NCBI RefSeq assembly: GCF_018143015.1
Contig: NC_054753.1
Coordinates: forward strand, 33,083,292-33,147,291
Source of the DNA: Lytechinus variegatus
Lineage: Eukaryota; Echinodermata; Echinoidea; Temnopleuroida; Toxopneustidae
DNA length: 64,000 nt
Reading direction: 5' to 3'
Part shown: positions 3,465-64,000 of the stretch, piece after piece
Numbering within the stretch: position 1 is the first letter of the stretch
Layout of the letters: each line of letters starts with the position of its first letter
Position numbers and translations under genes: made by a program
The notes under the pieces: model-generated
Seen by the model: only the letters and a program-made list of their open reading frames with translations
What the model was told of the DNA's origin: nothing
Database searches by the model: none

Positions 3465-3844
3465 TTATATTCGCTGCACTGGCTCCCTATAAAAAAACAG
3501 ATTATCTTTAAGATTTTGTTACTTGCCTTTCATAGTATTCGTGGATCAGCACCACAATACAGTCTTTCATTTACCAATCACTACAGACCAGGCAGATCTT
3601 TGCGCTCATCCACCTCTGGCTTACTTGTCATTCCGAAAGTTTCAAAAACTTGGGGGGAAAGATCATTTGCTTTTGCATGCCCCACTTTGTGGAATAGCCT
3701 TCCTGAAGACATAAAAAAATGTACCTCTGTCGAAACTTTCAAAAATCTTCTAAAAACTTTGCTATTTAACTCTTAGCTCTTTATGCGCCTTGAGCACTCA
3801 ACAGAGTGGATTTGGCGCTTTACAAGTCTCATTATTATTATTAT
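3465..3844 (+). mobile_element. 5'-truncated LINE 3' end (CR1/L2/Rex-like C-terminus)
   Basis: The + strand encodes about 105 residues beginning 'LHWLPIKKQIIFKILLLAF', followed by 'GSAPQY', 'RPGRSLRSS', 'KTWGERSFAFACPTLWNSLP' and 'FKNLLKTLLF'. This is the characteristic C-terminal segment downstream of the reverse transcriptase in CR1/L2/Rex-type non-LTR retrotransposons. Everything upstream is missing, as is usual after incomplete reverse transcription. The stop is followed by a 3' tail with 'gcgccttgagcactcaacagagtgga' split over 3785-3810 and an ATT repeat end at 3830-3844. That tail is shared with SINE family 1. Confidence 0.85.
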
Positions 3845-5040
3845 ATTTTATGAAAAGACAATAAGAAATTTCACTTTCCTTCATTTCAAATCATCCCTAT
3901 ACCCTAATTAGTAGGAAAACCCATATTAATGCACAGAAAATAGAGATTTATAAATATGTGAAAAGCTAATGAGAGGGATAGCCAAGAATTTTTTGAAATT
4001 TATATCTTTACAAAGAGAAAATCCCTTAATAAAGATGGAAAATGTACAAATGCATCTGCCTTTTTTTAGAAGTCTGAAAACAATGATTAAAAAAAAACCC
4101 AAAAAAAAACATGTCCTTCCCATCTTTGGTTCACTATTGCTTGGGTAAAGTTACAGTTGTTTGGAATCAGGTCCACTACTTATGATAAAAAAGTTTGATA
4201 TTGATGTGTTCTTAATGCACACAATTTTTTTTTCTTCAAATATTCTTTTATTTGCATTTACAAACTGTCTAATGATAAGGTAGCAGCAAAATCAAAGAAC
4301 AAAGAATTATAAAAATGAATTTATTTGTATCTAGTTATCATTTCATTGAATATAGCTTGTCCTTTCCTTTCTTTTCACCAAAATAAAGATTTACAAAGAA
4401 ACTTGAAAAGAAAGAAAGACACGCCAACACAAAAGTTTACCCTTCTCTTTCAGATGCCCCTCCCCCTTCCTACCAGAGCATACCCCTAAGAAAATGTGAG
4501 ATCCTGCAGATACATGTAACAAATGACACCATTCATTTCCCATCCCCCATACATATATTATTTGATATCATTATTACCTACATGTAGCTAGATAAAAATG
4601 AGGGTGGCCTCTGTCAATAATTAGAAATAAAAAAAACAGGATGAAGCAGGGAGCACACCCCCAGCCCTTCCTTCTTACTCACAACCCCCCCCCCCCAAAA
4701 AAAAAAACGTTAACACCACCTTTTCCGTATTTTCTTTTAATTTGGGGATGAGAATTTTTTCTTTGGTTGCCAAAACCTGCTTTCATTTAAAAGAGAATTC
4801 TGAAAAAATATCCAAAAATATTTGTACCATCCCTTCCCTGCCACAAATTATTGGAATCCTGGATCCATGCCTGCATATAACTCTTGAAAAACGGACATGC
4901 TAAAACTCCAAATCCAGATCTAATAAAGTGAGAATAACCAGTAATCTTCAACTTGACTCTTACCAAGCCAAATTTATAACCTAAGGGTTTAAAGGTTCAA
5001 GTGGATAGTTGACCTCACATTAAAGGGCAAATCCATTATA
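3845..5040. other. No gene recognised
   Basis: AT-rich intergenic sequence. One poly-C to poly-A junction lies at about 4685-4707. There is no domain-bearing ORF and no clear repeat boundary. Confidence 0.6.
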
Positions 5041-8456: not shown

Positions 8457-8579
8457 GTGCAATGGAAATACCGGGAATACTTCATGAGGTGAAAGATAAA
8501 ATGATCCATTTGAGGCAAAGCCAAGTTGAATGGATCATTATTTCATCTTTCACTGAATGTAGTATTCTGTCCATTGCAC
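8457..8579. mobile_element. Short palindromic element (GTGCAATGGA ends)
   Basis: The 123 bp fold almost completely on themselves. The left arm 'gtgcaatgga..aatact..gtgaaagat..aatgatccatt' is mirrored by the right arm ending 'attctgtccattgcac'. Part of the same end sequence recurs at 12259-12300 inside the right end of the large foldback. It lies just outside the left end of that foldback. Confidence 0.6.
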
Positions 8580-8759
8580 AAATGAAAAAATCATTCATTA
8601 TTTGGTATATATGACACCTAAAGTTGTTTTTTTCATATAGTATCCCGTAATTAGTAACCATCTGGAATAAAATTATTGGAAATGGTTTTTTGACTGATTT
8701 GAGTAGGTATGGGTGTCAACATTTACCAAAAAAAAGTTAGGAGGAATACGGGTTGGGGA

Positions 8760-9500
8760 AAGTGTTTTTTTTCAAGGTCAAAGGTCAATGACCTTTTCAT
8801 ATATACTGTATAATGGTATCTCTGAGATGGAAAGGCGCAGGTTGGTGATAATGGTGTCAAAATGCACAAATTCTTACAACAATATCAAATAAAATGAAAT
8901 TAAGTACCCAGAATGCACATTAAACGAAAACTTTCAAGGTCAAAGCCTTTCAAAGGTCATTGACCTTTTTTACATTATATACCATATACGATATAATGGT
9001 ATCTCTGAGATGAAAAGGCGCAGGTTGATGATCTTGGTGTCAAAATGCACGAATTCTTACAAGAAGATCAAATGAAATAAAATCAAGTAAATTCAGTGCT
9101 CATTCACCTATGAAATTCAAGATCAAAACCTTTCAAAGGTCAATGACCTTTTTTACACTATACATGTATACCATATACGGTATAATGGTATCTGTGAGAT
9201 GAAAAGGCGCAGGTTAGTGATCTTGGTGTCAAAATGCAGAGTTTCTTACAGGAAGATCAAATAAAATGAAAATAAGTACCCAGGGTGCATATTAATCCAT
9301 AAAGTACAAGGTCAAAGATTAATGACCTTTTTACATAGGTTATTTTTATCGTATAATGGTATCTCTGAGATAAAACACTGCGTGTTGGTGATTTTGGTGT
9401 CAAAAAGCAATTTTTGCAAGAAGATAAAAAGGCACAAAATAATATTAAAGAATTATCCTTCACCTTTGATATCCAATGTCAAAGGTCAAAAGTTAATAAA
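8760..9500. repeat. Left-arm tandem array, about 180-bp units
   Basis: Units are marked by 'ggtcaatgacctttt' near 8783, 8955, 9140 and 9320, each followed by 'ataatggtatctctgagat', 'aaggcgcaggtt' and 'ggtgtcaaaatgca'. Spacing is about 175-190 bp. The right arm carries the matching array in inverse orientation. Confidence 0.85.
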
Positions 9501-11364
9501 TATTGATATATCCATTCATGATTCCCAAAAAAGAAATTAATCCATTATATTCACATTTTTTGTGAATAATAGAAAGAAAAATAGCTATTTGTAATGAAAA
9601 CTTGGATGTTTAATAATTTCACTTTGAAATAAGGATAAATAATGGCCATGAAAAATATATTTAGGGGTTAGAGGTCAATGAACTATGTAAAAAACGGCTG
9701 GAAATTTAAGTAAATAGGTCGATAACTTGATTGTGGCATGTAGGTATATAGTGATTCTGATGGGGAAAAGACTCACCTGCGTGGAAAATGAACAGAAATT
9801 TAATAGTTGATTCCTGGACCAATGATGATGTCAAAATACAAGTTCGAGGTGAAATTTAAATCAAATAGCACTCTTTAATATATACTGTAGTAATGCATTG
9901 CCAAAAGTGTAAAAAAAAATCATGTATGATATAATTTGAAATGGTGAAGTTGTCTAAAGTAGCAGCATTTAGATATGCATTTTATAAATCTAAATCAAGG
10001 TACTAATTTCTCTGTAGCAATATTTCACTAACCTCAAATGCTACAATCAATACTATATACTATAACTTAAGCTGTAAATGGAAAAGATAGGCATCATCCA
10101 AGAACATTTTCATATAGCCAGGGACAATGATGAAGAATTGAAATAAGGCAATCATTAGAGCTGCAGCTTTTGTCATAGTAAATGCAGTTAAGTGTCTCAA
10201 CTTCAGCAAAGAGTAATCAAACTCTTGGAAACCTTCTGACATTTTCAGGACTTTGATCTGGCCCATTCAATGAAAGCCTTATGTTCTGTCAAGGGATAAC
10301 ATACCAGGATCTATATTATTACTGATATGTTGCACAGCTTGATCCTCAAGAACTGGAAGTGGTGCTGTAGGAGTGTTATTAGGTCAATGGATGTGTACTT
10401 GTAAGCTATTATCTCCTTTTGAATTTCATTACTATGCATGATAACAATCAGTTGTTCTGGACCAAATACATGATCCTTGTACAAACTGATACCTAGTAGA
10501 AATAGCATCATGGGTGACCTACGGCAGCTAGAGAGCAGATATGAAGTTTTGTCATGCAGCATTAGCATCTCAAGAGATTCTGGCAGCTCGCAATGAGAGG
10601 TAATTAATAATAATACGGGAATTCATCTTTGTTAAAGTTGAGATACATGCCATTTACTATGACAAAAACTGCAGCTCTAATGATGGCCTTCATTTCATCT
10701 TCATCGTCATCCCTCTGCTGTTTGGAAATGCTCTCAGATGATGCTAGCTGTGACATGAGATTTAGACCTATCCTATCCATTTTCAGAAGATTAAGCTAAT
10801 GAGATGAATGGACTATCGCTGGAGAGAAAAAGACACGACAACCTTGATTTAGATATTATGATGCATCAAATTTCAAATTGTATAATCCATTTCATTTTTT
10901 ATTGCTTTTGGAAATGCATCGCAGTATATGAAGAAGTGTTATTTGGTTATCACCTTTTTAAAACTTAATTTCCACTGATATTTTGGAAAGAGTTCATTGA
11001 CCTCTGACCCCTAAATACATTCTCCATGACCTTACTTCAGACTGAAATTATGAAACCTCCATGTTTTCATTACAAATTAGCCATCTTTATTTACATTATC
11101 ACAAATATGAACACATAGGATAAATGTTTTGTTATTTTTATGTCATACAGATTATACACACACACACACACACACACATATAAATGTATGTTTGTATATA
11201 TATATGGATATATAATATTTCATCTGAACTTGGAATTCAAGGGTGAAACAATATTCTGTATACTGATTTTGGTGTTGTTTAATCTACTGGTACAAATCTT
11301 TGCATTTTGGCACCAAGATTACGAACCTGTGATGTTTTATCTCAGAGATACCATTATCATTATC

Positions 11365-12100
11365 TTATGTTAAAAAGGACATTGACCTTTGTCCTTGAAT
11401 TTTAAAGGTGAATGTAAATTCTTGATGCTTAATTTTATTTTATTTAATCTTCCTGTAATAATCTGTGTATTTTGACACCAAGAACACCAACCTTCGCCGT
11501 TTTATCTTTATACCATTATATAATAATTATGGTATATAATGTATAAAAGGCCATTGACCTTTGGCCTTAAATTTTATGGGTGAATGTGCATTCTATAGGT
11601 ACTTAATTTTATTTCCCTTGGTCTTCTGGTCAGAATCTGTGCATTTTGACACCATGATCACCAACCTGTGCCTTTTCATCTCATAGATACCACTATACAG
11701 TATGGTAAATATAATGTAAAAAGGTCATTGACCTTTTAAAACCTTTGACCTTAAATTTCATTGGTGAATGTCAATTCTAAGTACTTGAATTCATTCTATT
11801 TTATCTTCTTGTAAGAATCTGTACATTTTGACACCATGATCACCAGCCTGTACCTTATCATCTTAGAGATACCATTATGCAGTATGGTATATAATGTAAA
11901 AAAGGTCATTGACCTTTGAAAGGCTTTGACCTTGAATTTTATCGGTGAATGTGCATTCTAGGTACTTAATTTTATTTTATTTTATATTCTGGTAAGAATT
12001 TGTGCATTTTGACACCATTATCACCAACCTGCACCTTTCCATCTCAGAGATACCATTATACAGTATATATGAAAAGGTCATTGACCTTTGACCTTGAAAA
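11365..12100. repeat. Right-arm tandem array, about 180-bp units
   Basis: These are inverse-orientation units of the same family, marked by 'cattgacctttg' or a close variant near 11379, 11553, 11736, 11908 and 12080. Intervals are about 172-183 bp. Each contains 'gcattttgacacca', the complement of the left-arm motif. Confidence 0.85.
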
Positions 12101-12390
12101 AAGCACTTTCCCCAACTCGTATTCATCCTAACTTTTTTTGGTAAATGTTGACACCCATACCTACTCAAATCAGTCAAAAAACCATTTCCAATAATTTTAT
12201 TCCAGATTGGCTACTTTGGGGTCTAATTTAGGGATACTAATATGAAATTCATGAATTTCGAGTGCAATGGACAGAATCATATGGATCCAAAATTGCACGG
12301 TTGATGACTTCATTGCAAAATGGGCTGAATGAACGATATCAAACAACCAATCAAATCACAAGGATCTATCTAGGTGTCATATACATTATC

Positions 12391-31880: not shown

Positions 31881-32585
31881 CCCCATTCCACAGAACGTAT
31901 ATTTTTGAAAGACCACTGAAAGACATAAAATTGGTGAGGAGTAATACAGCGGTCTTCAAGATCACTGAAATTTGTCATCTCTGTGGAATGGTTCAGAAAG
32001 ACCCCCCCCAAAAAAAAAAAAACTCTGAAAGACTGATGGATATGGACTTCGCCTGGTCTTTGAATGATCTCTCACGAGTCTTACAGTGATCTCCGCAAAA
32101 ATCTTGAGACTGCCGAAAGATCATTAAAGGACTATTAAGACTTTTGAAACTTAAATACCGGTGAAAGACTGCTGAAAGACCATTTTCCTGTAAGACCGTT
32201 GTATAATAGTTTTGGAGCCCATGAAGACCACAAAGACCACTGAAAGTTTGGTCAGGACTTGTGTAAGACCTCAAAGACCATGTAGGTTCATTGAGAGACC
32301 TCTGAAAGATCAACCAGAGTTCATGGTCTTTCAAAGGTGGATGGTGGTGATTTTTTACCTGATTGCTAAGAAAGCACGAATGCTTGTATGCAAGCAACCA
32401 GAGGACCGACGGCTTAATGTCCTCTCCGAAGGACCAGGTACTGAGGATTAATGCCTTACCAAAGGGCACTAGCGCACCAAATGGGAATCGAACCCGGGTC
32501 ACCGGAATACGAATCCCCCGCTCTACCGACTGAGCTATCGCGCCTCCCAGGTCATTCAGCGGCCTTGCTTTCTGTGGAATGGGGG
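31881..32585. mobile_element. MITE with CCCCCATTCCACAGAA ends, holding a SINE
   Basis: The first 16 bases CCCCCATTCCACAGAA are matched exactly by the inverse at the right end (32570-32585). The interior is rich in 'aaagaccactgaaag'-like repeats. It is interrupted at 32341-32547 by a - strand SINE of family 2, so the MITE is the older of the two. The long - strand ORF that crosses it is a chance frame. Confidence 0.75.
32341..32547 (-). mobile_element. tRNA-derived SINE, family 2
   Basis: The - strand starts 'ggaggcgcgatagctcagtc' (a tRNA-like A box) and has the B-box-like 'gggttcgattccc'. It continues with 'gcgctagtgccctttggtaa', 'ccttcggagaggac' and ends 'aggtaaaaaatcaccacc'. It shares its full length with the + strand copy at 39333-39549. 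The 3' end lacks the ATT tail of family 1, so a different LINE partner is likely. Confidence 0.85.
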
Positions 32586-32817: not shown

Positions 32818-33600
32818 GCTTCAAGGAGAAAGAAGAAAAGAAAAAAAAGGAAAAGAAGAAGACAGAAGAAAAAAAGTGAAAAAGTGAAAAATAAGAGGAG
32901 GAAGACGAGTGAATGAAATAATTTGAGGGGAAGACTCGCAAAAAAATAAATATTTTATGTTACTATATAAAATGTTTGCTTGCGCTTCGCGCCAGAATTG
33001 CCTGTTCGATGAGATTTATATCTTGCTCAATGGAGCAAGTTTTAAAGGCAATATACAAATCATATTTTAGCTCGGATATCGAGCTTTCATTATTTTTTTT
33101 TCATTTACAAATTTAAGTGCTCTGTAAAATGTCCGTTTTATGGTCTACATATCAGCATTTTAAGCTCACGCTGCGTTGTCACATTGTTTAATTTGCCAAG
33201 TTCCTTGTCTACGTATATTCCATAGTGTTCCATTAAACAAATGTATTCAGAATGCCCAGATTCTAGGTCTAAATTTAAAACATGCGCGATAGCTTGCATG
33301 TTGTTTATTCAAATTGTACTTAAATTATCATGTGTCTCATCAGAATATCAATAATTGTCTGCTCACGCTTCACGATCGCATTATTAATGATACCCAATTG
33401 ACTATATCCTATTTATGACTTACAAAATATGAATAGAGTGTCCCACTTTTAGGTCTAAAATCTCAATTTTCTTCCTCTCGCGCTTCGCGCTCGCATCAAT
33501 TGTTTAGTTACATACCTATCTGATTTATTAATACAAAAAGTGCTTAGAATGACCATTTTTTTAAGTCGGGGGGAGGGGGAGAAGGGGGAGAGAGGGGAGG
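32818..33600 (-). mobile_element. hAT-like non-autonomous element, inverted partial copy
   Basis: This is the reverse-orientation relative of 35008-36340. It shares 'ttcattcactcgtcttcctc' (as complement), 'gatatagtcaattgggtatc' (as complement near 33400) and the CG-rich palindromes 'tctcgcgcttcgcgctcgc' (33477) and 'gctcacgcttcacgatcgc' (33361). The end homologous to the left part of the complete copy is replaced by a G/A-rich run at about 33565-33650, so no terminal repeat is visible there. Confidence 0.7.
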
Positions 33601-35007: not shown

Positions 35008-36340
35008 CAGTGGCGTAGATAGATTTTTTTTTTCCCGGGGGCACTGGGGGGTCCTTGCTTTTTCAGGAGGGGGGGCACCGGCCATTTTTCCGGTGTGTAT
35101 GTGTCCACAAGGGCGGATCCGACTTTCGCCAATAGGGGACGGGGCCCGAAATTATCTTCACCTATATCAGTCACCTGTTAGTTTTATTCTTATAAAACAA
35201 CATAAACATAAAATAATCTCATAAGCCTTATAAAAAGTGCGAGCGCGAAGCGCGAGCGATTTTTTTTTACTTTAAAGTATTTTTTCCTGAAGTTTAATTT
35301 TCTGGGCAATGTTATGTGTGATCCTAAACGAGATTCGTATGTACCCCCAAGCGCGAACAGAAATTTTTATCAACTGTTCTAGCATTATCGAAAAGGGACC
35401 TGTTAAGGACTGCTTACAGTCACCCATGAAGACGGTATATATTTCAATAATGCGAGCGCGAAGCGCGAGCAAATTTTTTGACATTCCGACCTAAAAAAAA
35501 ATGTTCATTCTAAGCACTTTTTGTATTAATTAATGGGATAGGTATGTAACTAAACAATTGATGCGAGCGCGAAGCGCGAGAGGAAGAAAATTGAGACTCT
35601 TTTTTAGACCTAAAAGCGGGAAACTCTATTCATATTTTGTAAGTCATAAATAGGATATAGTCAATTGGGTATCATTAATAATGCGATCGTGAAGCGTGAG
35701 CAGGCAATTATTGATATTCTGATGTATAAAACTGGATAATTTAAGTACATTTTAAATAAAGAACATGCACGCTATCGCGCATGTTTTATATTTAGACCTA
35801 AAATCTGGGCATTCTGAATACATTTGTTAAATGGAACATTATGAAATACACGTAGACAATATGAACTTGGCAAATCAAACAATGTGACCACGCAGCGTGA
35901 GCTTAAAATGCTGATATGTAGACCATAAAACGATTTTTACAGAGCACTTAAATTTGTTAAGGAAAAAAAAACAATGAAAGCTCGATGTCCGATCTAAAAT
36001 GTGTTTTGCATATTGACTTCACAACTTGCTCCACATCAGCATATTGAGCAAGATATGAATCCCATCGAAAAAGCAATTATGGCGCGAAGCGCCAGCAAAT
36101 TTTTTTTATAGTAACATGAAAAGATTTTTTTTAATGCAAGTCTCTCTCTCACACTATTTCATTCATTCGTCTTCCTCCTCTTATTTTCCTCTTCTTTTTT
36201 TTCTTCTGTCTTTCTTCTTTCCCCTTTTCTTTCTTCTTTCTCCTTTTTTTTGCTCTGCCAATTTTTTTCTGGGGGGGCACACCAAATCTCAGGGGGGCAC
36301 GTGCCCCCCAGGCCCCCCCTTCCCCGTAGCTACGCCACTG
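35008..36340 (+). mobile_element. Complete hAT-like non-autonomous element, 1333 bp
   Basis: Begins CAGTGGCGTAGATAG and ends with CTACGCCACTG. It is flanked by a perfect 8-bp target duplication CGTCTGCT (35000-35007 and 36341-36348). An 8-bp duplication together with CAG-type ends is the hAT signature. No transposase is present, so it was moved in trans. The interior carries about six CG-dense palindromes of the form GCGAGCGCGAAGCGCGAGC (near 35239, 35451, 35561, 35681, 35881 and 36078, the last three degenerate) and CT-rich sequence near the right end. Related copies lie at 32818, 51215 and 58828. Confidence 0.85.
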
Positions 36341-39332: not shown

Positions 39333-39549
39333 GGAGGCGCAATAGCTCGGTCAGTAGAGGGGTGGTTTCAGATTCCATTGACCCGGGTTTGATTCCCACT
39401 TGGTGCGCTAGTGCCCTTTGGTAAGGCATTACATGTAATCCTTATTACCAGGTCCCTCGGAGAGGATCTTAAGCCGTTGGTCCTCTGGTTGCTTGCTTAC
39501 AAGCATTCATACTTTCTTAGCAATTAGGTAAAAAAATCACCACCACCAA
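39333..39549 (+). mobile_element. tRNA-derived SINE, family 2
   Basis: 'ggaggcgcaatagctcggtc' and 'gggtttgattcccac' form the tRNA-like head. The body 'gcgctagtgccctttggtaa' and end 'caccaccaccaac' match the 32341-32547 copy, with scattered substitutions and a small insertion ('catgtaa'). Confidence 0.85.
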
Positions 39550-54435: not shown

Positions 54436-56355
54436 ATGGATTGTCCTTCAAGAAGTCTAATAATAGGATGCATCTTCTTTAGCTTCGTGGCGTCTGTCTC
54501 TCCATGTCCCCCTAGATGTAGATGTGATCCCAACCAGAAGGTCTCCTGTACCGGAAGTAATCTCACAACCATACCCAGTGGCCTCCCAAATACAACACTG
54601 GTACTTCATCTTGATCGGAATGGCATCGAAATCATTAGACAGAATGCCTTCTCAAACCTACAATACACTGAAGAACTCTCGATAGCACAGAACAGACTTC
54701 ACGAAATTGAGAGTGGTGCTTTTACGGGTTTGTCAAACCTTGATAAGCTCTTTTTGAACGATAATCTAATAACAGGGTTTCCTTCAGGAATCTTTGCGCC
54801 ATTGATCAAGTTGACGGAGCTTAATCTTGGTGGCAATCGCTTTCCTGTAATTCCTGGAAACCTATTTGGATCGATGCCTTTGTTAGGACGCTTGTTTCTT
54901 GAGAACAGTGAGGTCGATCTTATCATCGAGTCTCAAGCCTTTGGTGGACTTGTAAACCTCGCGGAACTGTCACTCCGGTCTAGTCGGATCAAGAGCCTTT
55001 CCCCTGGAACATTTCAAGGGCTAAATAATCTGCTCATTTTAGATCTTAGTATGAATACATTTGGTACTCCTACAAGAGATGGCGCCAAAACTATTTCTTC
55101 GCTAAAAGGAAAACAGCACCCCAACGCAGGCCTAAATGCGCTTGGAGAGGGGATTTTCGCGGATCTTAAAAGTCTCATCGACTTAAATATGAGTTCGTGT
55201 ACTTTGACAACCATCAATAAAGAACTGTTCAGAGGTTTAACTTCACTTCAGCATCTTTACCTTTCTGGGAATAAATTGGATGGTATTGTTGAGAACACCT
55301 TTTGCGAATCGCCGAAGCTAGTGCTACTCGAACTAGATGGAAACCCTCTTGAGAACATTGAAGTCGGTTCGTTTAATTGTCTGAACCAACTCGGATATTT
55401 GAATCTGAACCATACGAGTATTGGACGAACTAAAGGAGCTTTGTTCAAAGAACTTCACCAACTGGTGGTGGTCTCCCTAAGCCATAGCGGTCTTGAAAAA
55501 ATTGCTGATGATTCCTTTCAGAACAAATCTAGATTGACTCGGATAGATCTAAGTGACAATGACATTGAGTGGTTGAATGCAAGCATGTTCTATGGAACGC
55601 CTCAGATCGGGACACTTCGCTTACAGAATAATCAAATAACAAAATTGCCAGAGAACCTCTTTGCTGATGTTGCCGGACCTCTGAACTTGTCGCTAAAAGG
55701 AAACCCCTTGGTTTGCGATTGTCAACTGGATTGGATTTCAGGATGGTTGTTGGAGAATGGAGGAAATCTTGACAAGTGTCTCTGTGATCAACCCTCTGCT
55801 CTCCACGGTCTTCATCTTGACAGTATCCCCTACGACAGATTCCACTGTAAACCATACATAATCATAGACATTCCGCAGATTTACAACGCAACACCAGGAG
55901 ACAAGCGGTTCGAACTAGTCTGTCCTGTTGGTGGTAAACCGCCCCCTACGATCACATGGACGATCCCAAGTGGCGAAAAGATATCCAAGAACACCGTCCA
56001 TGAGTACGAAAATGGCTTATATCGCGTTCGTGGAAACGACACCCTCGTCATCAGGGAAATAACATCAGCAGTCGAGGGGTGGTTTACATGCGAGGCAACG
56101 AACATTCTTGGACATATATCTGTCGATCTTGAGGTAAAGGTCGTCCACGTACCCAGTAATTGGATGGTAGCTTTCCTTGCGGTGATGATCGTGTTGTTTA
56201 TTGGATGTGCTTTGTGTCTTGTTGTTACATTCCTGAAACCATGTCGACGTCGAAGGCGCAGAAGGGAACTCATAAGGACACCAGCTCGAAGGGTTGACCC
56301 TCGGTACGGTCCACTCAGTCCCATAGCTGAAGGAAATGAAACCGATGAATTATGA
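54436..56355 (+). CDS. LRR-Ig transmembrane receptor-like protein
   Basis: A 639-residue single-pass membrane protein. It has a signal peptide (about 1-22), a cysteine-rich LRR N-cap (C24, C28, C30, C38: CPPRCRCDPNQKVSC) and about 14 leucine-rich repeats (about 45-420). The LRR C-cap spans 423-471 ('NPLVCDCQLDWISGWL'), and one Ig domain spans about 480-565 with cysteines 496 and 552 (FELVCPV, WFTCEA). A transmembrane helix (576-600) is followed by a 39-residue tail that starts KPC and seven arginines. This layout matches adhesion or signalling receptors of the LRIG/LINGO/AMIGO/LRRN type; orthology cannot be assigned. The tail has no kinase or TIR domain. The coding region is one exon. An acceptor (ttccttctcag, AG at 54427-54428) lies just before the ATG, implying a 5' UTR intron. 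AATAAA at 56704-56709 is a plausible polyadenylation signal. An unusual spacer ('TRDGAKTISSLKGKQHPNAG') breaks the repeat rhythm near residues 212-231. Confidence 0.93.
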   Translation: MDCPSRSLIIGCIFFSFVASVSPCPPRCRCDPNQKVSCTGSNLTTIPSGLPNTTLVLHLDRNGIEIIRQNAFSNLQYTEELSIAQNRLHEIESGAFTGLSNLDKLFLNDNLITGFPSGIFAPLIKLTELNLGGNRFPVIPGNLFGSMPLLGRLFLENSEVDLIIESQAFGGLVNLAELSLRSSRIKSLSPGTFQGLNNLLILDLSMNTFGTPTRDGAKTISSLKGKQHPNAGLNALGEGIFADLKSLIDLNMSSCTLTTINKELFRGLTSLQHLYLSGNKLDGIVENTFCESPKLVLLELDGNPLENIEVGSFNCLNQLGYLNLNHTSIGRTKGALFKELHQLVVVSLSHSGLEKIADDSFQNKSRLTRIDLSDNDIEWLNASMFYGTPQIGTLRLQNNQITKLPENLFADVAGPLNLSLKGNPLVCDCQLDWISGWLLENGGNLDKCLCDQPSALHGLHLDSIPYDRFHCKPYIIIDIPQIYNATPGDKRFELVCPVGGKPPPTITWTIPSGEKISKNTVHEYENGLYRVRGNDTLVIREITSAVEGWFTCEATNILGHISVDLEVKVVHVPSNWMVAFLAVMIVLFIGCALCLVVTFLKPCRRRRRRRELIRTPARRVDPRYGPLSPIAEGNETDEL

Positions 56356-56784
56356 TGAATTATATCGTCAACTGTGATGAACTGAACTATGACAGACCAT
56401 GACGCACTGTAAGAATTGTTGATCCGTGATCGTACATTATGTAACGTGTGCAAAATGATGTTAAAGACTGAAGGGTAACGTAAGAATGGAAAATGAGAAA
56501 GACATGAAATGCGATATACCAGTAATATAAACATTCATGCTGGAAAATGTAGGTTGCAACATGAACGGGATATTGTTGTTACTTACAAAATTTTGACTTT
56601 TTGCACTTATTAATTGTGCTTACGCATAATACAACAGGCCTATGTATATTATGCATCCTTTTAGAACTAAACAAGTAGAGCGCATCTGGCCATTACGCGA
56701 TTCAATAAAGCAGCAGTGCTGACTTTCAAAATGAGTATGAAAAAAATATTCACAACAAACACCATCCACATAATGTGCTACTAC
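56356..56784 (+). other. LRR-Ig 3' UTR and flank
   Basis: Non-coding sequence after the stop, with AATAAA at 56704-56709. A long - strand ORF (56534-55881) that overlaps the gene end is an antisense shadow with no domain. Confidence 0.6.
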
Positions 56785-57500
56785 GTTCATTGACCCTAAA
56801 TGACATTTGACCTTAATCAAGTACCTACGACCTGTGCAAGATGAACAATGATACTGGATTACCCCTTTGTCAACATTTCATTATTCATCATATCTATACA
56901 ATTTCAAGTTATGATGGCAATTCAACATTTACCTACAACGTCGCCAAAGCTTATTGTCCTTAAATGACTTTTGACCTTGGTCATGTGACCTGAAACTCGC
57001 ACAGGATGTTCAGTGATACTTGATTGCTCTTATGTACAAGTTTTATGAACTAAATTCCATAAATGTTGAAAGTATTCAACAAATACCCCCAATATGACCA
57101 AAGTTCATTGACCCTTAATGACCTTTAACCTTGGTCATGTGACCTGAAACTCAGGCACGATGTTCAGTAATACTTCATTACCCTATGTGCAAGTTTCATG
57201 CACTAGGTCTTTCTAAGTTATGACATTTCAGAAACTTAACCTTGGGTTACGATTTCAATGTTAATTCACCCAACATGGTCTAAGTTCATTGACCCTAAAT
57301 GACCTTTGACCTTGGTAATGTGGCCTGAAACCGGGGCAGGATACCTTATGTCTAAATTTCATGAACTAGGTTCGTATACTTTCCAAGTTATGACGTTATT
57401 TCAAAAACTTAACCTTAGGTTAAGATTTGATGTTGACGACGCGACCGCCGTCGGATAAGCTGCGCCTATAGTCTCGATCTGCTATGCAGGCGGAACAAAA
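56785..57500 (+). repeat. Repeat family A, second copy
   Basis: Four units with 'cattgaccctaaatgac'-like starts (about 56788, 56950, 57107 and 57288) and TGACCTTTGACCT at 57300-57312. It ends with 'gacgcgaccgccgtcgg' and 'gcgcctatagtctcg'. Compared with 1-573, the GCC run is not expanded. Confidence 0.8.
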
Positions 57501-58064
57501 AGGAGAAAAAATGCTTGGTAACAAGGAGAAACCAGTCTCTTTTAATATGTAAGTTTTCTGTTTGAACTCTAATTGAGTTACAATGAATTAAAAGTCAACT
57601 CAAATTATTAAAGCAAGTCTACTTTATTCATTTAGAAGAATGCCCGAGATGGATAATGACAAAATGCAACTATATCCAGAAATAAATACAGACGAGGATA
57701 AATTGAAGCATACATAGACATACCTATACCAGGAACAGAAATAAAGAGAGAAATAGAGAGAAGGAATAAAGAGGGAGAGAAAGAGAGAGCGAGGGGGAGA
57801 GGGAGAAAAGACACTGAAACTCAGATGACAACTAAAAAAAAATATTTTTCTCTTTCAATTATCAAAATGTGTAATACTACCGTTAATGGCTTTATTATTG
57901 ATTCATCAAACTTTGCAATCTAGAAAAGTAAGTTTTCTTGCGCGGTCGTTCCCGCGCTCTCTCTTTATTTCCTACACGTTTAAGGCATTTTTTATTCCTG
58001 AAAAGTACGATGACATCTTCATTCTCATCTCACCTCTAACCTATGCTGTGTAAATGAGTGTGCA

Positions 58065-58440
58065 TTGAATACATCTCGAGTGTTAACTTCTCATTTTACC
58101 GAGTTGGTTTATGTAGAAACTGGTTTTGGCCATCACCCAGTTTTCGAACTAATAAAAATTTGCATGTTCGCTTCGCTCGCTCATACATCAATATGCATGG
58201 TTAGCCCAACTTTAGTTATTTATGCAATAATTAATACTTTTAACTCTGAAGATAATGGAGGTGCGCCCCCACAACCCGTGTATTCAATGAAATTACTGAC
58301 GTCACAATGACTTCTGCGCAGAGTGAAAACTTTTATCCAATCGGGTCGCGGTAACCAAGGGAATGATGTAGGCGCACCTGTTTGTTTATTTTGCATCGTA
58401 AAGCAAACAAAATTGAATTGATCTTCGCATACGGACAAAC
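58065..58440. promoter_or_regulatory. CRE/CCAAT-bearing GC-richer segment
   Basis: Contains a perfect TGACGTCA (58297-58304) and a CCAAT (about 58335) followed by 'cgggtcgcggtaacc'. An inverted pair 'aggtgcgcc' (58259) / 'ggcgcacct' (about 58371) brackets the motifs. It could be a small promoter or a short inverted-repeat insertion. No adjacent coding exon was recognised. Confidence 0.3.
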
Positions 58441-58827
58441 TTTGGCTTACATTATATTCATGGAACCTTATTCAAATTGCCTTTCTTCTTTATTAGGATT
58501 AATATTCTTTCGCTTTCTCTGAAAGATGGTCAACATAATGTTTTTAAGGTAAATAAATAACATTGTACGATATCTATTTCTATTCAGAACGATCGTCTTT
58601 TTACTTTCGTCCCAAAAGTATTAGTGCAAAAAGTTGATACCGGGCTTTACCGGCCATGCCAGTTCGAGGTGTAAGGCAATAGAGATTCATATGAAAAAAA
58701 AAACACTTGCAATATTACTTATTAATTGTATGTTAAGTTGCCCTTTGTCCTCGTATATGTGTATATGTGCGATCCTAATAAAAGAAAGCCCACAACGACC
58801 ACTAACTTTACACATGCAATACACATA

Positions 58828-59640
58828 GGCGGGTCAAGGGGGGGGACAACCCGAGAGACCGGGGCCCCCTCTATTGGCGGAGCAAAAAAAGACAAAAAAG
58901 GAAAGAAAGAAAGAAAAAAAGAAAAGAGCGGAGGAAAAAAGAAGAGAGAGACGAGTGAATAAAAAATAATGAAATGGGGGGAAAACTTGGAAAATAAAAA
59001 TAATCTTTCATCACTGTGGAGCGTTGTGGCCCAGTGGATTAGTCTCCGGACTCTGAAACAGAGGGTCGTGGGTTCGAATCCCAACCATGGCGTAATTTCC
59101 TTCAGCAAGAAATTGATCCACAATGTGCTGCACTCAACCCAGGTGAGGTAAATGGGTACCTGGCAGGAATTTATTCCTTGAAATGCAGCGCGCGTAACAG
59201 CTGCACTGCTAAAGCCAGGGTAATTATGCTGCATATACTGTAGAGCGCTTAGAGACTTCTGACAAAGTAAGTGTTAAGCGCTATATAAGCAAGTATAATT
59301 ATTATTATGTATAAAATTTTCGATCGCGCTTCGCGCTCGCATTGGCTGTTAAGTGATATACATAACTTGTTCAATACTGAGCTTAAATACCAAATTTGGA
59401 AGTCAATATACAAAACATATTCACCTCGGAAATCGAACTTTCATAATTTTGTGTGATTTACAAATTGATTTTTATAAAGTGCTATGTAAAAATATCCGTT
59501 TTCAGGTCTGATTGTCAAAACGTATCAGCTAGCGCTGCATGCTCGCATTTTGATTGGCGAATTATGTTTGTGGCAATATTGATTACACAACAAACTACTT
59601 AAAATCTCATTTTCATGACAGTTTATCAAAAAGTTTGGCT
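58828..59640 (-). mobile_element. hAT-like element copy interrupted by a SINE
   Basis: Left part 'ggcgggtcaaggggggg' plus a purine-rich stretch corresponds to the CT-rich right part of 35008-36340 in reverse. The right part (59310-59640) matches 32985-33215, including 'tcgcgcttcgcgctcgc', 'atcgaactttcat' and 'gtgctatgtaaaa'. The SINE at 59016-59308 separates the two parts. Confidence 0.65.
59016..59308 (+). mobile_element. tRNA-derived SINE, family 1, nested
   Basis: 'gtggagcgttgtggcccagt' is the head, 'gggttcgaatcccaacc' the B box and 'gtgctgcactcaacccagg' the body. The tail 'agcgctatataagcaag' ends in ATT repeats. It inserted into the hAT-like element and was then duplicated with the block (63904). 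Confidence 0.85.
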
Positions 59641-60097: not shown

Positions 60098-61240
60098 ATC
60101 AATAAAGAACTGTTCAGAGGTTTAACTTCACTTCAGCATCTTTACCTTTCTGGGAATAAATTGGATGGTATTGTTGAGAACACCTTTTGCGAATCGCCGA
60201 AGCTAGTGCTACTCGAACTAGATGGAAACCCTCTTGAGAACATTGAAGTCGGTTCGTTTAATTGTCTGAACCAACTCGGATATTTGAATCTGAACCATAC
60301 GAGTATTGGACGAACTAAAGGAGCTTTGTTCAAAGAACTTCACCAACTGGTGGTGGTCTCCCTAAGCCATAGCGGTCTTGAAAAAATTGCTGATGATTCC
60401 TTTCAGAACAAATCTAGATTGACTCGGATAGATCTAAGTGACAATGACATTGAGTGGTTGAATGCAAGCATGTTCTATGGAACGCCTCAGATCGGGACAC
60501 TTCGCTTACAGAATAATCAAATAACAAAATTGCCAGAGAACCTCTTTGCTGATGTTGCCGGACCTCTGAACTTGTCGCTAAAAGGAAACCCCTTGGTTTG
60601 CGATTGTCAACTGGATTGGATTTCAGGATGGTTGTTGGAGAATGGAGGAAATCTTGACAAGTGTCTCTGTGATCAACCCTCTGCTCTCCACGGTCTTCAT
60701 CTTGACAGTATCCCCTACGACAGATTCCACTGTAAACCATACATAATCATAGACATTCCGCAGATTTACAACGCAACACCAGGAGACAAGCGGTTCGAAC
60801 TAGTCTGTCCTGTTGGTGGTAAACCGCCCCCTACGATCACATGGACGATCCCAAGTGGCGAAAAGATATCCAAGAACACCGTCCATGAGTACGAAAATGG
60901 CTTATATCGCGTTCGTGGAAACGACACCCTCGTCATCAGGGAAATAACATCAGCAGTCGAGGGGTGGTTTACATGCGAGGCAACGAACATTCTTGGACAT
61001 ATATCTGTCGATCTTGAGGTAAAGGTCGTCCACGTACCCAGTAATTGGATGGTAGCTTTCCTTGCGGTGATGATCGTGTTGTTTATTGGATGTGCTTTGT
61101 GTCTTGTTGTTACATTCCTGAAACCATGTCGACGTCGAAGGCGCAGAAGGGAACTCATAAGGACACCAGCTCGAAGGGTTGACCCTCGGTACGGTCCACT
61201 CAGTCCCATAGCTGAAGGAAATGAAACCGATGAATTATGA
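60098..61240 (+). pseudogene. 5'-truncated LRR-Ig gene copy
   Basis: Reads from codon 260 to the same stop with no internal stops, encoding the last LRRs, C-cap, Ig domain, transmembrane helix and tail of gene 54436-56355. It lacks the signal peptide, N-cap and the first 259 residues. The frame upstream enters the minisatellite and meets a TAA at 60068-60070 with no ATG between, so no initiation is apparent. Unless spliced to an upstream exon it should not make a membrane protein. Confidence 0.85.
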
Positions 61241-61669
61241 TGAATTATATCGTCAACTGTGATGAACTGAACTATGACAGACCATGACGCACTGTAAGAA
61301 TTGTTGATCCGTGATCGTACATTATGTAACGTGTGCAAAATGATGTTAAAGACTGAAGGGTAACGTAAGAATGGAAAATGAGAAAGACATGAAATGCGAT
61401 ATACCAGTAATATAAACATTCATGCTGGAAAATGTAGGTTGCAACATGAACGGGATATTGTTGTTACTTACAAAATTTTGACTTTTTGCACTTATTAATT
61501 GTGCTTACGCATAATACAACAGGCCTATGTATATTATGCATCCTTTTAGAACTAAACAAGTAGAGCGCATCTGGCCATTACGCGATTCAATAAAGCAGCA
61601 GTGCTGACTTTCAAAATGAGTATGAAAAAAATATTCACAACAAACACCATCCACATAATGTGCTACTAC

Positions 61670-62385
61670 GTTCATTGACCCTAAATGACATTTGACCTTA
61701 ATCAAGTACCTACGACCTGTGCAAGATGAACAATGATACTGGATTACCCCTTTGTCAACATTTCATTATTCATCATATCTATACAATTTCAAGTTATGAT
61801 GGCAATTCAACATTTACCTACAACGTCGCCAAAGCTTATTGTCCTTAAATGACTTTTGACCTTGGTCATGTGACCTGAAACTCGCACAGGATGTTCAGTG
61901 ATACTTGATTGCTCTTATGTACAAGTTTTATGAACTAAATTCCATAAATGTTGAAAGTATTCAACAAATACCCCCAATATGACCAAAGTTCATTGACCCT
62001 TAATGACCTTTAACCTTGGTCATGTGACCTGAAACTCAGGCACGATGTTCAGTAATACTTCATTACCCTATGTGCAAGTTTCATGCACTAGGTCTTTCTA
62101 AGTTATGACATTTCAGAAACTTAACCTTGGGTTACGATTTCAATGTTAATTCACCCAACATGGTCTAAGTTCATTGACCCTAAATGACCTTTGACCTTGG
62201 TAATGTGGCCTGAAACCGGGGCAGGATACCTTATGTCTAAATTTCATGAACTAGGTTCGTATACTTTCCAAGTTATGACGTTATTTCAAAAACTTAACCT
62301 TAGGTTAAGATTTGATGTTGACGACGCGACCGCCGTCGGATAAGCTGCGCCTATAGTCTCGATCTGCTATGCAGGCGGAACAAAA
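61670..62385 (+). repeat. Repeat family A, third copy (duplicated)
   Basis: Copy of 56785-57500 within duplication unit 2. Confidence 0.8.
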
Positions 62386-63711
62386 AGGAGAAAAAATGCT
62401 TGGTAACAAGGAGAAACCAGTCTCTTTTAATATGTAAGTTTTCTGTTTGAACTCTAATTGAGTTACAATGAATTAAAAGTCAACTCAAATTATTAAAGCA
62501 AGTCTACTTTATTCATTTAGAAGAATGCCCGAGATGGATAATGACAAAATGCAACTATATCCAGAAATAAATACAGACGAGGATAAATTGAAGCATACAT
62601 AGACATACCTATACCAGGAACAGAAATAAAGAGAGAAATAGAGAGAAGGAATAAAGAGGGAGAGAAAGAGAGAGCGAGGGGAGAGGGAGAAAAGACACTG
62701 AAACTCAGATGACAACTAAAAAAAAATATTTTTCTCTTTCAATTATCAAAATGTGTAATACTACCGTTAATGGCTTTATTATTGATTCATCAAACTTTGC
62801 AATCTAGAAAAGTAAGTTTTCTTGCGCGGTCGTTCCCGCGCTCTCTCTTTATTTCCTACACGTTTAAGGCATTTTTTATTCCTGAAAAGTACGATGACAT
62901 CTTCATTCTCATCTCACCTCTAACCTATGCTGTGTAAATGAGTGTGCATTGAATACATCTCGAGTGTTAACTTCTCATTTTACCGAGTTGGTTTATGTAG
63001 AAACTGGTTTTGGCCATCACCCAGTTTTCGAACTAATAAAAATTTGCATGTTCGCTTCGCTCGCTCATACATCAATATGCATGGTTAGCCCAACTTTAGT
63101 TATTTATGCAATAATTAATACTTTTAACTCTGAAGATAATGGAGGTGCGCCCCCACAACCCGTGTATTCAATGAAATTACTGACGTCACAATGACTTCTG
63201 CGCAGAGTGAAAACTTTTATCCAATCGGGTCGCGGTAACCAAGGGAATGATGTAGGCGCACCTGTTTGTTTATTTTGCATCGTAAAGCAAACAAAATTGA
63301 ATTGATCTTCGCATACGGACAAACTTTGGCTTACATTATATTCATGGAACCTTATTCAAATTGCCTTTCTTCTTTATTAGGATTAATATTCTTTCGCTTT
63401 CTCTGAAAGATGGTCAACATAATGTTTTTAAGGTAAATAAATAACATTGTACGATATCTATTTCTATTCAGAACGATCGTCTTTTTACTTTCGTCCCAAA
63501 AGTATTAGTGCAAAAAGTTGATACCGGGCTTTACCGGCCATGCCAGTTCGAGGTGTAAGGCAATAGAGATTCATATGAAAAAAAAAAACACTTGCAATAT
63601 TACTTATTAATTGTATGTTAAGTTGCCCTTTGTCCTCGTATATGTGTATATGTGCGATCCTAATAAAAGAAAGCCCACAACGACCACTAACTTTACACAT
63701 GCAATACACAT

Positions 63712-63903
63712 AGGCGGGTCAAGGGGGGGGGGGACAACCCGAGAGACCGGGGCCCCCTCTATTGGCGGAGCAAAAAAAGACAAAAAAGGAAAGAAAGAAA
63801 GAAAAAAAGAAAAGAGCGGAGGAAAAAAGAAGAGAGAGACGAGTGAATAAAAAATAATGAAATGGGGGGAAAACTTGGAAAATAAAAATAATCTTTCATC
63901 ACT
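63712..63903 (-). mobile_element. hAT-like element left part (duplicated)
   Basis: Copy of 58828-59015. Its G run is three bases longer than in unit 1. Confidence 0.6.
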
Positions 63904-64000
63904 GTGGAGCGTTGTGGCCCAGTGGATTAGTCTCCGGACTCTGAAACAGAGGGTCGTGGGTTCGAATCCCAACCATGGCGTAATTTCCTTCAGCAAGAAA
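63904..64000 (+). mobile_element. tRNA-derived SINE, family 1 (cut by window end)
   Basis: Head and B box identical to the 59016 copy. The body and tail lie beyond the window. Confidence 0.8.

Follow-up and report, generated by a model that had tools for sequence, protein, structure and literature searches.

We interpret a long inverted repeat in the genome of Lytechinus variegatus as a copy of a foldback DNA transposon that belongs to a young, non-autonomous cut-and-paste family, a reading to which we assign a probability of about 0.9. The element lies in a window of 64,000 nucleotides (the whole stretch analysed; NC_054753.1, positions 33,083,292 to 33,147,291, forward strand), and all positions without a contig label refer to this window. 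It was observed directly that the ends are precise, that the target duplications measure 3 bp, that copies are dispersed over many contigs, that an empty site exists and that the number of tandem units varies. Each arm consists of an end domain, a tandem array with units of about 180 bp and a non-tandem inner domain, and the two arms flank a loop of about 466 bp (Table 1). The inverted arms are long and take up much of the element, and they are tandem in their outer and non-tandem in their inner part; this places it in the foldback structural class. The first-pass annotation had recognised a foldback at 8598..12390 with a loop of about 400 bp. The foldback and its loop are real, but the loop is somewhat larger, bounded by the innermost paired arm segments 10145-10184 and 10651-10690, and the ends had to be moved inwards because the outer 40 and 151 bp of the earlier interval belong to the repeat into which the element inserted. 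The ends given here were derived from stacking of copies and a genome-wide end search.

Table 1. Features of the foldback element and its insertion site (window positions).
Feature	Position	Strand	Remarks
Whole foldback element	8638..12239	+	3602 bp; terminal inverted 9-mer TAGTATCCC...GGGATACTA; end stacking, genome-wide ends
Left end domain	8638..8766	+	8660-8734 100% complementary to 12133-12207
Left outer tandem array	8801..9409	+	4 units, unit 171-189 bp
Left array unit cores	about 8810, 8993, 9182, 9353	+	
Left-arm IR1 palindromes	8782, 8954, 9137		8782 just outside the array, before its start
Left inner non-tandem arm	9500..10184	+	inner-arm alignment z = 27.6
Loop (middle domain)	10185..10650	.	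mean pairwise identity 97% over 22 sequences
Right inner arm	10651..11130	-	arm alignment
Right outer tandem array	11225..12066	-	unit cores about 11339, 11678, 11860, 12041, and one decayed unit
Right-arm IR1 palindromes	11722, 11903, 12075		12075 just past the array
Right end domain	12103..12239	-	terminal inverted repeat GGGATACTA
Left target-site duplication	8635..8637	.	3-bp ATA
Right target-site duplication	12240..12242	.	3-bp ATA
Older high-copy target repeat, left part	8475..8637	+	outside the element; joined-flank query positions 18-180
Older high-copy target repeat, right part	12243..12383	+	outside the element; joined-flank query positions 181-321

Gapped alignment of the left arm (8638-10215) with the reverse complement of the right arm (10640-12239) yielded 1143 identities in 1317 aligned columns (86.8%). 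In blocks of 100 aligned columns, the two outermost reach 97 and 96% identity, those of the array 90, 91, 84, 87, 78 and 82%, and those of the inner arms 81-86% with large gaps. Compared with 200 doublet-block shuffles, the outer arms score z = 65 and the inner arms alone still reach the value given in Table 1. This confirms that the inverted arms pair in their tandem and inner non-tandem parts alike; an alignment limited to the tandem units, named beforehand as grounds for rejecting the foldback, did not occur. The longest ungapped pairing, with 95% identity, extends over 220 nt; another, of 75 nt, is perfectly complementary. Long paired arms, outer arrays of about 180-bp units (spacing 165-189 bp in the window copy, about 165-190 bp overall) and non-tandem inner halves had all been proposed by the first-pass annotation and are borne out.

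To define the ends, 20 other loci found with the inner arm were fetched and stacked against the window copy. In many of them, similarity stops at 8638 and close to 12239, at the inverted 9-mer TAGTATCCC. Of the 20 fetched loci, 14 yielded both ends (15 under a looser criterion), so that the inner arms are not merely found singly in the genome; in the others, a recognisable end is missing or the locus is rearranged. Among 16 copies with both ends (the 14 fetched loci, L059 and the window copy), 13 show an exact 3-bp target duplication, while random re-pairing of the ends (500 times) gave 1.4 such matches on average and never more than 7. Longer duplications do not stand out (4 bp in 1/16, 8 bp in 0/16), and the duplicated triplets vary among the 13 copies (e.g. 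CCC, GCA, ATC and AGT). The three copies lacking an exact 3-bp duplication are L039, L051 and L057, one of which has a 4-bp match. An empty-site query of 358 bases, made by joining both flanks with one copy of the triplet, matched C14:30532930-30533280 over positions 1-358 at 96%, straight across the junction. A second stretch, C3:4109347-4109634, matched positions 17-321 at 83%, again straight across the junction. The same query gave 1129 candidates genome-wide, 40 of which were scored; from the uninterrupted flank matches it follows that the insertion target was a copy of another dispersed repeat. A terminal inverted repeat, a target duplication of constant length and an empty site together characterise the element as a DNA transposon.

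Genome-wide searches covered 869.6 Mb in 33 contigs. With at most 2 mismatches allowed, the left end was matched at 190 places; the right end, with at most 3, was likewise matched at 190, and the reversed-pattern controls gave 0 in both cases. The left-end variants CCCG and CCCA have 60 and 55 exact places. Of each set of 190 ends, 100 were listed, and within these lists 46 left ends have an oppositely oriented right end at a distance of 2.8-4.5 kb. The inner arm gave 377 candidates (40 scored, all matching at 91-100%) and the loop 235 (40 scored, all at least 94%). Sixteen full-length copies measure 3476-3822 bp, and their same-side arm segments are 0.971-0.979 identical (n = 16), in a sample biased towards the best matches to the window copy. 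The recognised unit cores per arm vary from about 3 to 6 between intact copies. An older layer is also present: among 29 fetched left ends, 20 are at least 92% identical to the window copy, 8 are 81-86% identical, and one, at an identity of 0.67, carries an insertion. On contig C6 of the assembly (G000), same-strand right ends lie at 64478/79917 and at 1107419/1122903, with spacings of 15.4 and 15.5 kb; these two similarly spaced pairs are possibly a segmental duplication.

The comparison of arms within and between copies bears on the history of the family. Left and right arms are as different within one copy as between copies, both in the outer segment (identity 0.945 within, 0.942 between) and in two inner segments (0.815 and 0.854 within, 0.815 and 0.857 between), where the inner arms differ by 15-19%. 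Therefore, the divergence of the arms predates the spread of the family. The imperfect foldback spread as such, and no ongoing arm-to-arm correction is visible to this divergence test. Potentially, the arms originated from an old inverted duplication or a capture event, the arrays would have changed in length through unequal exchange or slippage, and one progenitor, already asymmetric, would then have spread.

The element appears to lack the means for its own transposition. A Pfam search with six open frames gave no match above the cut-off, only sub-threshold matches with E values of up to 1, and Rfam returned 0 matches at gathering thresholds; the earlier remark that there is no recognisable transposase inside the element is thus upheld. 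Having no recognised coding content, the element is taken as non-autonomous. The loop holds a minus-strand open frame of 103 aa, likewise with no Pfam match. Among 22 sequences, 13 retain this frame at 99-113 aa, and 9, two of which are partial loops, have a shorter one. Such retention is expected by chance because the family is young, the loops share 97% identity and the length differences between them are not multiples of three. A small coding role for the loop frame is therefore unlikely.

The search for an autonomous partner started from end pairs more than 5 kb apart among the listed ends (13 rows, 3 of which re-use a closer-paired end, leaving 10 candidates), and no partner was found in the 2 of these 10 that were inspected. 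The 9.1-kb pair on C2 belongs to a copy of the family into which 5.7 kb have been inserted, between element positions 456 and 457. The 20-kb pair on C4 has no element sequence in the 15,001 bases fetched, 6 kb of which are another young repeat, and no Pfam family was found above the cut-off in 7 of its 8 listed open frames. This part of the young repeat (L060 2001-8000; G000:C4:16302500-16308499) occurs at about 30 other places at 95-99% and is itself split by two inserts, at query 1433-2027 and 3648-4625; the inverted ends of the second insert are 39 bp long and perfect. When the left-end pattern was relaxed, 69 + 77 matches resulted, none leading to a transposase, and genome profile searches with PF02992, PF07592 and PF00867 revealed no transposase tied to the family termini. 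Since these searches revealed neither an autonomous partner nor a transposase, we only infer mobilisation in trans: a transposase from an autonomous relative would recognise the TAGTATCCC termini, perhaps together with subterminal sites that recur in the outer arrays, would excise or copy the element and would insert it with a 3-bp stagger.

The window contains further repeats. A direct duplication of about 3.9 kb (55213-59112 and 60098-64000; 99.87% identity) arose either by tandem duplication very recently or as a duplicate in the assembly. A second long inverted pair (32823-33562 and 35495-36245; about 740-760 bp, 88%, span 3.4 kb) is possibly another long-TIR element. At 123-488, a two-copy 192-bp tandem repeat carries TGACCTTTGACCTTGG, with similar sequence at 56988-57450 and 61873-62335; DR1-type sites lie at 141, 333, 57300 and 62185. 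A tRNA-Thr (cgt) was called at 32472-32543 on the minus strand within a repeat (32338-32547) that has an inverted copy at 39333-39548 and is perhaps a tRNA-derived SINE.

It had also been suggested that transcripts of the foldback could form long double-stranded RNA and feed small-RNA pathways. In the predicted fold of the whole element, the minimum free energy is -1573, far below the -746 to -798 of five doublet shuffles, and 1127 of 1380 predicted pairs join arm to arm, with uninterrupted helices of 74 (the longest), 63 and 41 bp. However, mismatches and gaps would break up most of the duplex. Because any large inverted repeat is expected to fold in this way, the strong predicted fold is a consequence of the structure and not evidence of transcription or function. 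The double-stranded RNA idea is thus only compatible with the fold model, and we consider it unlikely, if worth keeping in mind, that such RNA would be the main biological effect of the family.

As to the source of the transposase, several superfamilies were considered. EnSpm/CACTA transposons duplicate 3 bp of target and have CACTA/CACTG termini. Mobilisation by a transposase of this type, with the outer arrays serving as subterminal transposase-binding repeats, would agree with the length of the duplication and with the conservation of repeated subterminal-array motifs between units. The genome also harbors Transposase_21 genes at six places, each within an open frame of 610-846 aa. However, the family termini are TAGTATCCC rather than CACTA/CACTG, none of the six genes lies near any listed family end, and the one region examined around such a gene (10 kb on C17) contains neither TAGTATCCC nor inverted termini with a 3-bp duplication. 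We therefore regard an EnSpm-type source as doubtful. The six genes, including L062 4233-6509 (G000:C17), are possibly recent or domesticated EnSpm. A transposase of AcademX or Zator type is an equally doubtful source. An AcademX transposase is expected to carry an XPG_I domain, which was matched at only 4 places genome-wide, none near a listed family end. The Zator-related profile PF07592 had 0 matches in the genome, but it had 0 in the control genomes too. In favor of both, PMC10045372 gives target duplications of 3-4 bp for AcademX and 3 bp for Zator, which fit the 3 bp seen here. The 3-bp duplication was also compared with that of another superfamily. PIF/Harbinger elements duplicate the triplet TWA, and triplets such as CCC, GCA, ATC and AGT do not conform to it.

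The tandem array carries a perfect IR1-type palindrome, AAAGGTCA(A/T)TGACCTTT. Six exact AGGTCANTGACCT sites, which have the form of nuclear-receptor half-sites (IR1-type), are present in the window copy and 0 in the other 60,398 window bases, against 0.001 expected in a first-order simulation, a figure to be read with the fact that the sites are not independent because one motif repeats through the tandem unit. All 16 full copies have 5-8 exact sites. The 17-mer AAAGGTCAWTGACCTTT occurs at 1107 places genome-wide (reversed control 0), and among the first 50 places listed, on contig C1, 44 lie within 1.5 kb of a listed family end. Between 107 units, conservation of the palindrome is high, at rank 14 of 166 windows, but not unique: two other motifs outrank it, one of them the anchor used to cut the units. 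In 12 diverged left arms, selected by similarity to the left end, the three palindrome sites take ranks 8, 128 and 343 among 730, and the third is thus only average, at the median. Constraint on the palindrome is therefore only partly supported. It is tempting to speculate that the family is the chief carrier of AGGTCANTGACCT in this genome, maybe as portable receptor-binding arrays, or that the palindrome is the candidate binding site of the transposase; we hold this to be quite improbable. If true, copies that bring 5-8 palindromes each may have placed candidate nuclear-receptor response elements at many loci by jumping, and if the palindrome were the transposase site, this mode of subterminal recognition, combined with a 3-bp stagger, would be new. 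The palindrome load gives a direct, testable prediction on factor binding.

The first-pass annotation had pointed to sea-urchin TU elements, for which PMC4079207 cites Lieberman et al. 1983. In Strongylocentrotus purpuratus, the arms of TU elements are modular with a repetitive outer and a unique inner domain. This likeness in architecture holds. TU elements have 15-bp outer repeats and 8-bp target duplications, whereas the unit here is about 165-190 bp and the duplication 3 bp, and membership in TU is not supported because of this difference in target duplication. More generally, a classical foldback, whether TU-type or Mutator-like, would share the modular plan of end, tandem outer, non-tandem inner and middle domains, but a duplication of 3 bp in 13/16 copies and of 8 bp in none argues against it and makes it very improbable: target duplications are 8-10 bp in Tetris (PMC4079207) and 4-10 bp in MuDR (PMC10045372). 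Finally, replication errors do produce inverted duplications, but a host duplication or an assembly artefact is contradicted by the dispersed copies, the 3-bp duplications and the empty site, and is hardly credible.

The element can be compared with several known DNA transposons. Galileo, a member of the P superfamily in Drosophila, likewise has long inverted repeats of variable length, but its duplications measure 7 bp and its copies are in part coding. EnSpm/CACTA, AcademX and Zator share the short duplications (3 bp, or 3-4 bp in AcademX) and differ in that no link to their transposases was found and CACTA termini are absent here. Similar in plan is Tetris of Drosophila virilis, a foldback with tandem outer units of about 220 bp, inner domains, a noncoding middle domain without ORFs, and a non-autonomous status with no partner found (PMC4079207). 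Tetris differs in its longer duplications and in having three structurally complete copies in its assembly, compared with 3 bp and dozens of copies in another phylum here. Among the open-access papers searched, none was found to describe the present family, which may already be listed in Repbase or Dfam. A foldback family with 3-bp duplications fits an independent origin of the foldback form in different transposon lineages. In summary, within the known structural class of foldbacks this family is new; it carries an unusual load of palindromes, and its 3-bp target duplication separates it from the foldbacks with which it was compared.
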